From: Chloroflexota bacterium
Lineage (GTDB): Bacteria > Chloroflexota > Dehalococcoidia > Tepidiformales > Tepidiformaceae
Length of the DNA stretch: 12,576 bases
Direction of reading: 5' to 3'
Assembly: GCA_025350285.1 (NCBI GenBank)
Contig: JANXYE010000607.1
Location: 1-12,576, forward strand
Position numbers and translations under genes: made by a program. The notes beneath the pieces were generated by a model. That model searched no databases, was not told where the DNA came from, and worked only from the letters and a program-made list of their open reading frames with translations. Each line of letters opens with the position of its first letter. Position 1 is the stretch's first letter. This document shows, piece after piece, positions 943 to 10,975 of this stretch.

Positions 943-1332
943 CTACCGGGAAGTCACCATCGACGACATCCTCGAATATCATCGCGCACTCTTTCTCGAT
1001 CGAAACGAAACCCCCGCTCCGCTGATATTCCGAGATCGCCTCGAGAGCGCGATCGCGAGGCTCATACCACGGTGTTCGGCGAGGAAGCGTTCCCGACGCT
1101 CGCCCTGAAAGCCGCGGCGTTGCTCCACGGTATCGTGACGGGACATCCGTTTCTCGACGGCAATAAGCGAGCCGGACTTGGCGGTACCCTGCTCCTGCTC
1201 GGACAAAATGGCGTCACCACCTGGCCGACGGCGGACGAGGTGGTGGACCTCACGCTCGCCGTCGCTACCGGCGAGCTGCGCGAGGTCGAGGAGATCGCGG
1301 CCCGGATTCGGACCCTGTTCGCCCTGGATTAA
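932..1332 (+). pseudogene. doc: Doc-type Fic-fold toxin gene split by a single-base frameshift
   Basis: The N-terminal half is read from 932 (probable TTG start, overlapping the antitoxin stop): YREVTIDDILEYHRALF, ending LESAIAR at 1058-1060. As read, that frame stops at 1106-1108 after 58 codons. The C-terminal half is in the frame of 1063-1332: HTTVFGEEAFPTLALKAAALLHGIV and the catalytic HPFLDGNKRAG. Adding one base near 1061 (AGG-CT to AGG-CCT) gives LESAIARPHTT, matching the family's LESAxARP pattern, and a continuous protein of about 133 residues, normal for Doc. The motif has Lys after Asn (GNKR, not GNGR), as in P1 Doc, which phosphorylates elongation factor Tu instead of adding AMP. 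The gene is either truly inactivated or carries an assembly indel. The Doc family call is firm; inactivity is not. Confidence 0.85.
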
Positions 1333-1418: not shown

Positions 1419-2789
1419 TCACCCATCCCAACCGGAGCGGCCCCGAGCGACGCGCGGCGGGCTCAGCGATTCGGCCGCGCGCAGGCAGAGGGCGAGGCTC
1501 GCGACATAGTCGTCGTGCCTGCCCGGCGGCGCTTCCCAGCCCATCTGGCCGCCCCCGCTGAGGCGCATCCGGCAGACGGCCAGTTCCCGCCAGAAGGCCC
1601 TCGCTTCGGGTGTCTCGTCCCGCGCGTAAACGCTCAGACCGCGGCGGCGGACGGCGGCCTGGAGGGCGAAGCCCAGCTCCGACTTCGAGGCCGCCGTGAA
1701 GACCACCCGCTCGAGCACGCCGGGCGCCAGGATCGCCTCCAGGTGTCCGCAGATCGGCCCACCGAGCCCGGTCGCGTCGGCGCAGACCTTCTCTATCCGC
1801 CAGTGCGCCACCTCGCCCGCGATCTCCCGCTCGACCGCGGCATACGCCCGGCCCGTGTACACCCGGTGCCCCACGACCTCGCGGCATCCGCCGTCCACGC
1901 GAGCGATCGTGAGCACGGTCGCGTCGGCCTGGTCGCCATCGCCCCCGAAGTCGAGCCCGGCGACGTAGCGTCCGCCCGGCGATGGCCCACGCTGGGCGGG
2001 GTAACGGCCTTCCATGGCCGCCAGGTCCTCCGCCGCGAACAGCCGCCCGGCGGTTTCGGCCGTGACCAGTTCGTACTGCGTGAGGAAGAGCGGATGGCGG
2101 GCGCCGAGCCGCTCGCGCTCCGCCCGCACATACTCACCATAGACCGGACTCTCGGCCGCCACCGTGCGCCACCCCACTTCGTGATGGAGCGGGATGAAGG
2201 CGTACCCGGTGGCCTCGTGTTCAGCGTCGCGGCGGCGGTTGCGCGCGACCGCCCGGTCGAGCAGGGAAGACCCGTCCCAGGGCGTCCCGAAGAGCACCGT
2301 GCAGGCGCCCGTGGAAGCCGCCATCGGCCGGAACTGGCGCTCGAACCAGGCCTCATCGATCTCCTGGGCTTCGTCCGCGATGAGCGCCAGCGAGGCCGTG
2401 TGCCCGGCCACATGGGCCTCCGCTGAAGCGCTCAGGAAGGTGGCCCAGGCCTCTCCAACACGCACGACCGCCCCGTCGAAGCGCGGCCGCGCGCCCCCGG
2501 GCAGGGCCGGACCGAGCCATTCGAACGCCCGCCGCAGCCGTTCGATGCTGATCCCGGCCTGCGGCGAAAACGTCGGTGCGCAACAGACCAGGCCGCCACC
2601 CGTCAGCGCGTTCCCCGCGAGGACCGTCGCGACGAGGCTCGCGGCCACTTCGTTCTTGCCCGACTGGCGCGGGAAAAGCACCGTGAACGTTTCCCCCCGG
2701 AGCGCGCGCAGGCCGCGCACGAGCGAAAGGAAGACACGCCCCTGGTACTCCCTCGGGAAATGGGCCATGCGCGGGTGGTTCGCTGCCAT
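1419..2789 (-). CDS. Phage-type terminase large subunit, orphan
   Basis: This 456-residue protein has the two-domain layout of a DNA-packaging motor. The ATPase has Walker A in PRQSGKNE (residues 40-47; the GKN form is usual in some tailed-phage terminases). Walker B is in ALIADEAQ (D139, catalytic E140), and the coupling motif is in VLFGTPWDGSS (164-174). The C-terminal RNase H-like nuclease has acidic residues in AGLDFGGDG (D280), VCADAT (D338) and GRHDDY (D426/D427). Both active sites look intact and the length is normal, so this is not an obvious remnant. No small terminase, portal, protease or capsid gene lies nearby. It is divergent from the DUF192 gene, with a 127-bp gap. The start is uncertain: GAAGG touches the ATG at 2789, and an in-frame ATG lies seven codons later (2768). 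It may be a prophage remnant, part of a gene-transfer-agent-like system encoded in pieces, or a domesticated nuclease. Confidence 0.85.
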   Translation of the reverse strand: MAANHPRMAHFPREYQGRVFLSLVRGLRALRGETFTVLFPRQSGKNEVAASLVATVLAGNALTGGGLVCCAPTFSPQAGISIERLRRAFEWLGPALPGGARPRFDGAVVRVGEAWATFLSASAEAHVAGHTASLALIADEAQEIDEAWFERQFRPMAASTGACTVLFGTPWDGSSLLDRAVARNRRRDAEHEATGYAFIPLHHEVGWRTVAAESPVYGEYVRAERERLGARHPLFLTQYELVTAETAGRLFAAEDLAAMEGRYPAQRGPSPGGRYVAGLDFGGDGDQADATVLTIARVDGGCREVVGHRVYTGRAYAAVEREIAGEVAHWRIEKVCADATGLGGPICGHLEAILAPGVLERVVFTAASKSELGFALQAAVRRRGLSVYARDETPEARAFWRELAVCRMRLSGGGQMGWEAPPGRHDDYVASLALCLRAAESLSPPRVARGRSGWDG

Positions 2790-7150: not shown

Positions 7151-7389
7151 ATGGCCGTCCAGGTGAAATGGTTCGCTACGCTGGTGAAGCGCACAAAATC
7201 GAAGCAGGCGGTGACCACCGTCGAGTGGACGGCCGGCTTGACGCCACTCGCCGTGTTCAAGGCGGAAGGGTTCAACGACGCCGACGCCGAAGCCGTTCTG
7301 GTCCTCATCAACGATGCCCAGAGCGACCAGCAGGCAGCGCTCGCCGACGGCGACCGCCTCGAGTTCATGGTCAGCATCCAGGGGGGTGA
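7151..7389 (+). CDS. MoaD/ThiS family sulfur-carrier-like protein with a probable frame error at its Gly-Gly end
   Basis: MoaD and ThiS are small ubiquitin-fold sulfur carriers. Their C-terminal Gly-Gly is adenylated and thiocarboxylated, for molybdopterin, thiamine or related pathways. The first 79 residues fit: VKWFATLVKR at the N-terminus, then VLVLINDAQSDQQAALADGDRLEFMVSIQGG, the usual strand, turn and tail. As read, the frame does not stop after Gly78-Gly79 but continues to 7546, antisense to the next gene. The codons are CAG GGG GGT GAC. One more G in the six-G run at 7381-7386 would give CAG GGG GGG TGA, ending exactly at Gly-Gly at 7387-7389, one base before the stop of the convergent gene. 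I therefore give the corrected end. No MoaE, ThiF-like or molybdopterin gene is nearby, so the pathway is open. Confidence 0.75.
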
Positions 7390-7390
7390 C

Positions 7391-8374
7391 CTACGGCGCG
7401 GGCATGCTGAAGGTCATGCTCTCGCAGTACATCTCCGCCTTAACCCTGCGGATACTCTCGACCCCGGCTTCGGCTTTTTCCGGCGCGCACCGGAAGATCC
7501 CGACGTTGGAGAACGTCAGGGTGGCGAGGACAGTCTTCAGGTCTAAGGTAAGGAAGTCGATGGAGCCACTCTTCTCGTCCTTCTGACCGTGGATGCCCTT
7601 GATCACAAATGACTCCGCCCAGTCGAAGAACGGACCGGCCGCCGATTCGGGCAGGGTGACGACCAGGTTCGGGGTTTCGAGTTTGGCTGGCTCCTTGGTG
7701 CTCACACGGTCGGTCACGCCGGGACGGTCGATGAACGTCTGCTTCACGACCAGAGCCTCGATCTTGTTGACCTTCGTGCATGCGGCTTCGAGTCCGTCGA
7801 TCTTGAGCCGGAAGTTCGCGGGGAGCCACTTCTTCTGGGCTTTTACCGAAGCGGCAATCGCCGCGCCGCTGCCGACCTTGCGGTGGGTAGAATCGGGCGA
7901 AAACTCTAACGAGAGGCGTCCGGCCTCCTTCGATGCGGCGTCGAGTGCAGGAAAGCCGATCTCGCTGATGAGCGCGTCGGAGAAATCGAGCCGCGACAGT
8001 TCCTTGAAGTTGAAATCGGCGGAGATGAGTGCGCCGCTCTTGCGTAGCGGGGAGCCGTCCATGCAGGCCTTCATCCAATCGAACGTGGACGAAGCCATGC
8101 TGAAGTCGAACTCGACTGTGATGTCCTCGTACTGCGGCAGGCCAGGGTGCTTGAGCGCGCCAACCTCGATGACCTCCGCGAATGCTTCTCCACCCACTGT
8201 CGAGACGAGGAAGCCCTGGAACGCTCCGTCGAGTTCCAGACCGAACTTCCCGGCAGAGAAGGCGCGTCCGGCGGCGGACGCCACCTCGGGCATCGCCGCG
8301 CCGATAGGGGCCGCCGCGAGAGCCGCCGCCGTAAATCCGGCCGTCTTGAGAAATGTCCTTCTGTTGCCTGCCAT
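7391..8374 (-). CDS. Tat-exported protein with two tandem phage tail-tube-like (gp19-like) domains
   Basis: This 327-residue protein begins with a strong twin-arginine signal: NRRTFLK (residues 4-10), an Ala-rich hydrophobic stretch, and a likely cleavage after ASA (about residue 34). It should be exported folded. The mature part has two related halves. Three motifs recur in order: FGLELDG (44-50) and FRLKIDG (188-194); STFDW (96-100) and PFFDW (248-252); LDFSDA (129-134) and LTFSNV (286-291). The F-x-L-x-[IL]-D-G opening and strand-rich pattern resemble T4 gp19/Hcp-type tail-tube domains. That match is from pattern only and is moderate. Its codons look less GC-rich than those of flanking genes. 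A GGGGA Shine-Dalgarno sequence lies five bases before the ATG. It could instead be an unrelated secreted beta-sandwich protein. No sheath, baseplate or VgrG gene is nearby. Confidence 0.7.
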   Translation of the reverse strand: MAGNRRTFLKTAGFTAAALAAAPIGAAMPEVASAAGRAFSAGKFGLELDGAFQGFLVSTVGGEAFAEVIEVGALKHPGLPQYEDITVEFDFSMASSTFDWMKACMDGSPLRKSGALISADFNFKELSRLDFSDALISEIGFPALDAASKEAGRLSLEFSPDSTHRKVGSGAAIAASVKAQKKWLPANFRLKIDGLEAACTKVNKIEALVVKQTFIDRPGVTDRVSTKEPAKLETPNLVVTLPESAAGPFFDWAESFVIKGIHGQKDEKSGSIDFLTLDLKTVLATLTFSNVGIFRCAPEKAEAGVESIRRVKAEMYCESMTFSMPAP

Positions 8375-8428: not shown

Positions 8429-10975
8429 TTAGCCAGACACCGATGCCGGGAGCAGCGCGCGCAGCTCATACAGCTTCTGAATCGCTTCGATCGGCGTCAG
8501 GCCGTCCGGGTCGATGGCCGCCAGCGCCGCTTCGACCGGCGAGGGGCCGGCAAAAAACGATGGCTGGAGCAGCGGTGGAGGGTCGGCGGCTGGTTTCCCA
8601 GGGCCTGCCGGCCGTTGCGATTCGAGTTCGGCGAGCAGGTGCTCCGCGCGCGCCACGACCGGCGCGGGCAGCCCGGCGAGACGGGCGACGTGGATCCCGT
8701 ATGACCGGGCGCTCGGCCCCGGCACGATGCGGTGTTCGAACACCACCTCGGCGCCGTCCTCGCGCACGGCCACGTGCGCGTTCTCGACGCGCGGCAGCAC
8801 CGCCGCGAGCGTCGTCAGTTCGTGGTAATGGGTGGCGAACAGTGTGCGCGGACGCACTTCCTTGCGGTTGTGCAGAAACTCCACCACGGCCCGTGCGATT
8901 GCCATGCCATCGAAGGTGCTCGTCCCCCGCCCGACTTCGTCCAGCACGACCAGCGACCGAGGCGTCGCCTGGTGCAGGATCTGCGCGGTCTCAACCATCT
9001 CCACCATGAACGTCGATTGGCCGGCGGCCAGATCATCCTGTGCGCCGATGCGCGTAAAGATCCGGTCGAACAGCGGTAGGTCGGCGTCTGTCGCGGGGAC
9101 GAACGAACCCGCCTGCGCCATCAGCGCGATGAGGGCGACCTGCCGAAGGAAGGTGGATTTGCCGCTCATGTTGGGCCCCGTGAGGACAACGATCTGGCGA
9201 TCCTCGTCGAACACACAGTCGTTCGGCACGAAGCGCCCCGGCCCGAGCGAGTGCTCGACGACCGGATGGCGCCCACCGGAGATGTGCACGCGCTCGCCCT
9301 GGTTGAACCGTGGCCGGACGTAGTTTCGCGCCGCTGCAGCCTGGCCCAGGTCGAGCAGTACGTCGATTGTCGCCACCGCCTCGGCTACCGCCTGGAGTTG
9401 CGGCAGCACCGCACAGAGCGATTCCAGCAACTGCCCAAACGCTTGTTTCTCGAGTTCGACGAGGCGGTCGCGCGCCCCGACCAGGCGGGACTCGTGCTCC
9501 TTCAGCTCTTCGGTCACGTAACGTTCGGCGCCGACCAGCGTCTGGCGGCGCTGATAATGCGCGGGCGCCAGGTGGACGTTCGAACTCGAGATCTCGATGT
9601 AGTATCCGAAGACCCTGTTGTGCCCCACCTTCAGCGAACGTATCCCGCTTCGCTCCCGTTCCAGGCGCTCAATCCCGAGCAGGTACCCACGGGCATCACT
9701 GGTCTGTGCCCGCAGCGAATCGATTTCGGGGCTGAACCCGGCGCGGATGACGCCCCCTTCATCGAACGCTGGCGGCGGGTCGTCATCGAGCGCCTCGTCG
9801 AGCGTGGCCAGCGACTCCGCCGAGGCGGCGAGTCCAGCGAGCGTCCGCGCCAGGATCGCGGGCAGTTCGCCGCGGCTGAGGATCGCTCCGAGGTCGAGCG
9901 TCGCACGGAGACCGGTGCGCAAGCCGTGCAGGTCGCGCGGGGATGCCGCCCGCGCCCCCAGCCGTCCGGCCAGCCGTCCGATATCGGGTACCCCTCGTAT
10001 GACGGAGCGGCACTGTTCACGCTCGATTGGGTGCCCCGCCGCCCACTCCACGCCGTCGTGGCGCCGTCCCAACTCCAACTCGCTTCGCAACGGACGCGTC
10101 AGCCACGAGCGCAGCATCCGGGAGCCCATCGCGGAGCGGGTCTCATCGAGAACCTGGAGGAGGGACGAACTCCTGCCCGGTTGCGGCATCACATCGAGGT
10201 TGCGGAGCGTGCGCTGATCGAGCGTAAGGACGCCCTCATCCGCCACCCGCCTCACGCGCTGCAGCGCCCCGAGGCCGGCGGGGTACGTCTCCTTCAGATA
10301 GAGCAGCAGATGGGCGAGCGCGGCCGCCTCCGCCGCCGTCTGCACGAGGTTCGCCCGGGCGTTTTCTCCGAACTGGTTCGCGAGCGCCGCCTCAACGGCG
10401 AGTTCGCCGGCCTCTGGCCTGCGTCGGATGGTCCCGCCGAGACTCGGAGGCAGATCGAACTCGTCCTCGACCAGGAGTTCCGCCGGCACGGACCGGAGCA
10501 GCTCCGCCATCGCTTCCGCCCCGGCCGCCAACCGCACTTCGCCCGTTGTAATGTCCGCAATCGCGACCGCCGGCCCGTCCCGCCGAATCACAAATGCGGC
10601 CAGTTCGTTCGGTGCGGACGGATCAAGCGAGGCCTCCGAGGTGACCGTGCCGGATGTCACGACCCGGACAACGTCGCGTGGCACGATGCCCTTCACGTCC
10701 GCCGGGTCCGCCAGCTGTTCACAGACGGCCACGCGGTAGCCACGCGCGACGAGCTTCGCGATGTGGCCATCGATGCTGTGGTAGGGAACGCCCGCCAGGG
10801 GCACCCGCAGGTCCTTGCCCATCGGCTTCGAGGTCAGCGTGATCTGGAGTTCCTGGGCAACGAGTTTCGCGTCGTCATCGAACGTTTCGTAGAAGTCGCC
10901 AAGCCGGAAGAAGAGCACGGTATCCGGGTAGCGGCTCTTGAGTTCGAGGTACTGTAGGCGAACGGGGGTAGACAC
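8429..10975 (-). CDS. mutS: DNA mismatch repair ATPase MutS
   Basis: This 848-residue protein matches the full length of bacterial MutS1, which binds mismatches and small loops as a dimer and recruits MutL. The mismatch-reading F-x-E is in GDFYE (F28, E30). The connector and lever domains follow, with a clamp region in the middle. The ATPase has Walker A GPNMSGKST at about residues 600-608, Walker B and signature VVLDEVGRGTSTFDG at about 675-688, and the ATHYHEL switch. The C-terminus has a QPSFF segment, which resembles the beta-clamp binding motif, and the DGLTPIEAIQKLYEL helix region. The start is GTG 10975, since the residues just after it align with the usual MutS N-terminus, and a -10 box lies seven bases upstream. 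No mutL lies in the window. All key residues look intact. Confidence 0.97.
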   Translation of the reverse strand: MSTPVRLQYLELKSRYPDTVLFFRLGDFYETFDDDAKLVAQELQITLTSKPMGKDLRVPLAGVPYHSIDGHIAKLVARGYRVAVCEQLADPADVKGIVPRDVVRVVTSGTVTSEASLDPSAPNELAAFVIRRDGPAVAIADITTGEVRLAAGAEAMAELLRSVPAELLVEDEFDLPPSLGGTIRRRPEAGELAVEAALANQFGENARANLVQTAAEAAALAHLLLYLKETYPAGLGALQRVRRVADEGVLTLDQRTLRNLDVMPQPGRSSSLLQVLDETRSAMGSRMLRSWLTRPLRSELELGRRHDGVEWAAGHPIEREQCRSVIRGVPDIGRLAGRLGARAASPRDLHGLRTGLRATLDLGAILSRGELPAILARTLAGLAASAESLATLDEALDDDPPPAFDEGGVIRAGFSPEIDSLRAQTSDARGYLLGIERLERERSGIRSLKVGHNRVFGYYIEISSSNVHLAPAHYQRRQTLVGAERYVTEELKEHESRLVGARDRLVELEKQAFGQLLESLCAVLPQLQAVAEAVATIDVLLDLGQAAAARNYVRPRFNQGERVHISGGRHPVVEHSLGPGRFVPNDCVFDEDRQIVVLTGPNMSGKSTFLRQVALIALMAQAGSFVPATDADLPLFDRIFTRIGAQDDLAAGQSTFMVEMVETAQILHQATPRSLVVLDEVGRGTSTFDGMAIARAVVEFLHNRKEVRPRTLFATHYHELTTLAAVLPRVENAHVAVREDGAEVVFEHRIVPGPSARSYGIHVARLAGLPAPVVARAEHLLAELESQRPAGPGKPAADPPPLLQPSFFAGPSPVEAALAAIDPDGLTPIEAIQKLYELRALLPASVSG

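Follow-up and report, generated by a model that had tools for sequence, protein, structure and literature searches.

In phage tails and injection machines, tube proteins are regarded as internal components whose assembly takes place beneath a sheath or along a tape measure. Those of the Streptomyces coelicolor CIS (PDB 8bl4), Pvc1, Afp1 and T4 gp19 are not known to carry a signal and are encoded beside sheath genes. The protein described here has the same fold, each of its halves matching these tubes, but unlike them (single-domain chains of about 140–165 residues) it is a signalled two-domain fusion encoded away from sheath genes. Passages of PMC11937823 describe gp19 beside sheath genes in Myxococcota MAGs, read as eCIS, and in Geobacter gp19 genes adjoin a sheath gene, according to a section of PMC10599522. 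Tube proteins can also be double. T5 pb6 is such a double tube protein, and the chain studied here likewise consists of two fused tube domains. An excerpt of PMC9022992 gives T5 pb6 an additional Ig-type domain. Parts of PMC5717097 state that pb6 is able to form tubes spontaneously without a tape-measure protein and may also remain unassembled at high concentration, and mention duplications of the T6SS spike and of the phage hub.

The window, i.e. the whole stretch of DNA analysed here (12,576 nucleotides), carries at 7391–8374 a gene for a predicted exported double tail-tube protein of gp19 type (327 aa), recognised from the ORF, PF06841, an AlphaFold model and structure matches. The first-pass annotation had placed a Tat-exported ORF at these positions, which are correct, and had left its strand, which is minus, unstated. 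The gene starts 54 bases past the end of mutS (8429–10975, minus strand), and a consensus promoter scan around it found none (0.2 expected). The twin-arginine signal read there earlier is present, with RRTFLK at residues 5–10 and ASA at residues 32–34, so that the protein combines the signal and the cleavage motif of a Tat substrate. The NCBIfam Tat signal model TIGR01409 matches residues 4–34 with 17.6 bits (cut-off 16.7). Together with the N-termini of orthologues and with low AlphaFold pLDDT (<50 at residues 1–4 and 10–35), this match delimits a predicted Tat signal peptide at residues 1–35 (8270–8374, minus strand). Of the Tat machinery, TatC is present twice in the window's own genome. 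All 11 genomes searched for TatC, the window's own included, have it, but so do 11 of the 14 controls; its presence shows no more than that the Tat route exists. A ThiS/MoaD-like ORF (7151–7546, plus strand; PF02597, 19.9 bits, below the cut-off of 22.5) lies at the other end of the gene; its frame continues for about 50 codons beyond its Gly-Gly at a G-run and overlaps the tube gene's 3' end in antisense.

The mature part of the protein divides into a first tube domain (residues 36–182; 7829–8269, minus strand), which matches a profile of single gp19 tubes as well as Hcp1 6bdc, and a second one (residues 183–327; 7394–7828, minus strand). Three ordered motifs recur in both halves, as had been claimed: F-x-L-x-[IL]-D-G at residues 44 and 188, FDW at residues 98 and 250, and L-x-F-S at residues 129 (also 156) and 286. 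When the letters of the mature protein were shuffled 200,000 times, this pattern never appeared in both halves, a test weakened by the fact that the motifs had been picked by eye from this same sequence. Profile-profile comparison of the N-terminal half (36–182) with the C-terminal half (183–327) gave Prob 95.4 and E 1.9e-8, against Prob of at most 1.3 for eight column-shuffled C-terminal halves used as controls. Against a single-domain gp19 profile of 18 rows, some of them copies of one gene, the N-terminal half reached Prob 98.7 and the C-terminal half Prob 85.2.

The whole protein belongs to the gp19 family, as it matches Pfam PF06841 with 38 bits (cut-off 28.2) in two stretches; in a six-frame search of the genome the best single stretch scored 24.4 bits, below the cut-off of 28.2. 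Weaker matches were obtained to the PHROG 4542 tail tube (E 0.016) and to the phage tail region model TIGR02241 (19.2 bits, cut-off 62.4). Judged by sequence comparison, the second domain is the more diverged of the two. A second Pfam gp19 stretch is detected in two of 10 homologues and, in another set, in two of six double-tube proteins, and a distant member (L036) matches PF06841 with 26.0 bits, below the cut-off of 28.2. A single-sequence search of PDB sequences with the window protein gave no match; only the family profile gave matches, the nearest solved sequence being 8bl4 (46.9 bits), followed by Pvc1 (19.6) and Afp1 (19.5). No Hcp model or chain was found among the sequence matches, including those to Pfam, to NCBIfam and, by the family profile, to PDB sequences.

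The AlphaFold model, which is of the monomer only, shows the gp19/Hcp fold when matched to known structures with Foldseek, which bears out the barrel proposed by the first-pass annotation. Separate structural rows cover each half of the model, as the proposal of a tube fold in each half had implied: Hcp1 6bdc aligns on residues 42–167 and the Streptomyces CIS tube 9gts on residues 177–323, and tail tube proteins span residues 38–327. Both halves therefore have the fold of a tube domain, and two such domains are fused in one chain, which in structure resembles tail tubes of the T5 type. Full-length TM-scores are modest (8xan 0.61; other tail tubes 0.45–0.55; T5 crystal entry 0.38), with rmsd values of 4.6–10.6 against tail tubes; thus, the two domains need not be placed relative to each other as in T5. 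The tail tubes of T5 (pb6), P74-26 and SH-Ab15497, all phage proteins, have only 5–10% sequence identity to the window protein. The likeness to Hcp of type VI secretion is one of fold only, the matched chains (116–145 residues) corresponding to about one half of the protein. Within the best 50 structural rows, none of the full-length matches named is to a T6SS spike or phage hub chain.

A protein search found at least 559 homologues at E ≤0.01, and a profile search with 35 signalled rows at least 1238 at E ≤1e-20, both totals being lower bounds (8000 candidates scored). Among the matches listed, 118 of 120 homologues are 300–370 residues long. The window protein is thus, on these matches, a member of a wide family of putative double-gp19 proteins of about 310 residues. 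Their N-termini are of three kinds, namely none, Tat-like and Sec/lipoprotein-like. The 170 full-length rows, near-copies included, comprise 45 Tat-like, 27 Sec-like and 98 unsignalled ones, as called by a simple rule (hydrophobic stretch plus RR motif, not a trained predictor). Beyond this rule, signals were called with one NCBIfam model and in part by eye, with the start codon picked within longer frames; the calls for L019 and L037 are weak. Two labels were switched manually, P0112 becoming Sec and L053 Tat, which left the class counts unaffected, and L033 was deemed signalled by eye from its long-ORF start, the rule, which reads only beside the matched domain, having given none. The expectation that homologues would share the signal peptide therefore holds in part: a Tat-type N-terminus is present in all four other orthologues of the window's family, but by the simple rule there is no signal in 98 of the 170 full-length homologues. 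The signal marks one class of the family of proteins rather than the whole.

Signalled and unsignalled proteins conserve their columns alike (65 versus 97 rows, correlation 0.86, means of 2.62 versus 2.75 bits). Cysteines per domain average 3.47 in unsignalled rows (97), 3.05 in Tat rows (38) and 1.44 in Sec rows (27), a trend confounded by the relatedness of the rows. Cys199 is retained in 90% of unsignalled, 84% of Tat and 26% of Sec rows, and Cys317 in 92%, 92% and 52%, respectively; Cys89 (88%, 55% and 22%) drops in both exported classes. Loss of cysteines in the Sec class, with two of three kept in the Tat class, is as predicted if Sec proteins fold outside and Tat proteins inside the cell.

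The signalled or unsignalled state has changed more than once. A single clade of all exported rows was rejected on an 81-row tree (log-likelihood 99.7 lower, AU p 0.0047), which requires seven changes, three of them forced by starred branches. A 110-row tree requires at least six changes between exported and unsignalled states and 19 among three states. Both trees are quick and unrooted and have weak backbones, so that gains and losses of the signal are indistinguishable. The 110-row tree omitted P0002–P0007, L052 (identical to L029 in its N-terminal stretch), L005 (taken as P0057), L033 and about three in four of the 69 unsignalled P rows. The 81-row selection, made after the 110-row tree had been seen, also dropped long or ambiguous rows (L038, L037, L053, the second copy of L015, L036, L030, L031, L035, P0029, P0106, L021 and L047), together with eight near-copies and one in two of the unsignalled P rows still left.

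Double-gp19 genes were found at 37 loci in named genomes and at one in viral contigs. With L039–L041 (fragments or remote) excluded, 35 full-length loci were counted. A signal (Tat-, Sec- or lipoprotein-like) is present at none of the 15 loci with sheath-cluster neighbours and at 15 of the 20 loci without (Fisher p 4.9e-6, relatedness ignored), the absence of neighbours being partial at several loci cut by contig ends (e.g. L005, L013, L018, L020). The sheath-cluster loci correspond to 14 records filed under Myxococcota and one viral contig. Records with signalled loci are labelled Chloroflexi, Dehalococcoidia, SAR202, Acidimicrobiia, Actinomycetes, Nitrospirae, Symbiobacteriaceae, Myxococcales, Deltaproteobacteria, Bdellovibrionales and Bacteroidota. 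Of the 20 unsignalled loci, 15 lie within contractile-injection clusters; the other five are L015, L027, L031, L035 and L038, and four of these five genomes have a sheath gene.

In the Myxococcota clusters, loci L032, L014, L024 and L026 show, in this order, a first sheath gene (403–414 aa), one or two copies of the double-gp19 gene, a conserved gene of 129–151 aa, a second sheath gene (592–599 aa) and then a single gp19 gene. The double-gp19 proteins of such clusters (e.g. L032, L014, L026) have 41–51% identity to the window protein over nearly the whole mature length; unlike it, they lack a signal and are encoded between the first sheath gene and the 129–151 aa gene. In the window's own genome, a contractile cluster lies on a different contig, C126 (L004), and comprises a sheath gene (506 aa), a single gp19 gene (152 aa), a homologue of the conserved small gene (134 aa) and another single gp19 gene (147 aa). 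The shared gene order indicates that the Myxococcota double gene occupies the place of the single-tube gene, and its product presumably serves as the main tube of the Myxococcota machines. In each of the 11 such cluster genomes searched, one or more gp19 matches also fall in frames as long as a single domain. The signal-less relatives point to a double-domain, perhaps trimeric, tube in many injection machines of the Myxococcota. In addition, two tandem double-gp19 genes occur within the Myxococcota contractile clusters of L014, L017 and L022–L026, which suggests double-domain tubes of perhaps two kinds per machine.

Among the named loci, no conserved partner gene was found except a recurring methyltransferase. 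It adjoins the Tat-signalled double-gp19 gene in four Actinomycetota/Chloroflexota loci that are distant relatives: L018 (8273–9811; Pfam DUF7059, MTS and DUF7782), L030 (8420–9922; Pfam DUF7059 and MTS, with DUF7782 below cut-off), L029 (6849–9935; BLAST) and L021 (10873–12624, on the opposite strand; BLAST).

We think it fairly probable that the window gene encodes an injection-type tube protein with two fused domains, Tat-signalled and used outside the cytoplasm without a sheath of its own. The earlier reading, of a tail-tube fold that was duplicated, given an export signal and reused, is thereby supported: the fold, found in each half, withstood examination, conservation of the signal is mixed and export is predicted. 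Such a chain would fold in the cytoplasm and then cross the membrane via Tat, as its signal implies, and the signal would be removed after crossing. Given the fold and the T5 precedent, the mature protein may form trimers that build pseudo-hexameric rings, and these rings would probably, if with some uncertainty, pile up as short, hollow tubes, either at the cell surface or within the wall or matrix. Candidate roles outside are those of a scaffold, a conduit or an adhesive fibre, a structural scaffold or tube being favoured over an enzyme or effector. To go by the genomes compared, exported reuse would usually occur without a sheath.

A broader proposal, which we hold tentatively and regard as doubtful in its full extent, is that a tube protein, duplicated and exported, is the material from which bacteria of several phyla make extracellular nanotubes or stacks of rings that have no sheath, that the signal state (Tat or Sec) changed repeatedly, and that Bacteroidota strung the same domains into giant secreted proteins. 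Giant proteins of 1377–2056 aa with Sec-like N-termini are encoded at L033 (6485–12316, plus strand) and represented by P0122–P0126. They combine CIS_tube (PF19266) with one or more gp19 domains, and carry Ig-like domains in four of five cases and DUF4214 in two; no sheath match was found in the L033 genome (Bacteroidota). Another large protein, P0127 (2041 aa), has RHS repeats, a C-terminal gp19 domain and a hydrophobic N-terminus. Exported tube proteins of gp19 type were not described in the literature searched, most subscription papers and all bioRxiv preprints being outside it. The fold and the family were already known, and export and separation from the sheath are new as far as that literature goes. 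If true, a duplicated and exported family of this kind would be a viral structural fold put to use repeatedly as a bacterial structure outside the cytoplasm, often without a detected sheath in the genome. Some predicted secreted bacterial proteins carry, in their database source names, the labels of phage tail proteins.

The alternative that fares best, which we nevertheless consider unlikely, is that the protein serves the cell's own contractile injection machine in trans, as a structure on the cell surface (docking ring, cap or adaptor) with which released particles would engage. Within the window, the first-pass annotation had seen no other contractile-system gene, and this holds after Pfam searches of 10 ORFs and comparison with the genome's own sheath, gp19 and neighbour proteins. 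The gene thus does not lie beside sheath and baseplate genes, as that of a working CIS tube should, and its product, with a Tat signal above cut-off, departs from the cytoplasmic, signal-free state of such tubes. The homologues are tube genes of injection clusters, which suits a role in trans, as does the distribution within the window's family: the double-tube gene is present in 5 of 38 genomes, and all five have a sheath gene, versus 15 of 38 family-wide (Fisher p 0.006, relatedness ignored). Within this family, a connection with an injection machine is possible. But no exported gene adjoins sheath genes in the stretches examined, and among 15 further genomes with an exported copy only three have a sheath gene (3 of 16 if G133, probably the same genome as G409, is counted), which is close to the 74 of 350 genomes of the window's phylum, a rough yardstick. 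Fourteen of these genomes carry the 15 signalled loci, and the fifteenth is G217; they belong to several phyla, and one could be of the window's family. With a sheath in 3 of 15, the exported gene generally needs no detectable sheath, a statement to be read with the incompleteness of MAGs, in which "no sheath" can reflect a gap.

We give slightly less credence to a monomeric secreted binding or carrier domain, with an Hcp-like chaperone role, that has lost assembly. No general partner gene was found, and the giant secreted proteins string tube domains together with Ig domains, both as such a role would predict. The conservation of the same positions as in injection-cluster copies argues against it and is compatible with the preferred reading of an exported structural tube protein.

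The close relatives of the 7391–8374 protein (P0001–P0009) look mosaic. P0002 equals P0001 except inside residues 38–57, P0003 changes partner after about residue 150 and P0008 after about 115; the four-gamete test failed for 218 of 903 informative column pairs (eight rows), and the signal is nearly invariant. This pattern may reflect either intragenic recombination or chimeric metagenome contigs. In the window's family, L045 and L046 (one genus) have flanking genes in common, and by tblastn the window, L044 and L047 share no flanking gene with one another or with L045/L046 (stretches of 2.9–4.0 kb plus the window), so the five family loci represent four neighbourhoods. For L045 versus L046, dN is 0.119 and dS 0.448, and the dN/dS of 0.27 for this one orthologue pair indicates that the gene is kept by purifying selection. 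Their predicted exported proteins are 79% identical and their flanking proteins about 88–95%; the tube protein thus changes faster than its neighbours.

These data bear on another possibility, improbable in our view and a little more so than a monomeric carrier: a decoy or shield, i.e. a secreted ring that caps or blocks incoming tubes, whether those of phages or those of the injection machines of neighbours. Patchy occurrence in the family (5 of 38 genomes), a mosaic pattern of the kind associated with surface proteins in conflict, and the faster change between L045 and L046 would all suit such a function. Conservation like that of injection-cluster copies and a dN/dS of 0.27 speak against it, and chimeric assembly could also give the mosaic pattern.

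An ordinary prophage or injection-cluster remnant with a signal-like N-terminus by chance is very improbable: a terminase-like ORF lies 4.6 kb away, but the signal is kept in four orthologues that, with the window, occupy four different neighbourhoods, and the gene is under purifying selection. A prophage origin was also considered in an exact-peptide-pattern scan (not exhaustive) of 2.9 million viral contigs, which returned a single relative, L042, and this is a fragment of a sheath cluster. Besides the tube protein and the terminase-like ORF, no further phage genes were recognised among the 10 ORFs scanned in the window. The terminase-like protein is encoded at 1419–2789 (minus strand) and matches PF17289 with 18.6 bits, below the cut-off of 22.6. 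Finally, a short ORF at 1072–1332 (plus strand), located behind a small ORF at 703–942, contains the stretch HPFLDGNKRAG, which we take to resemble Fic/Doc proteins.
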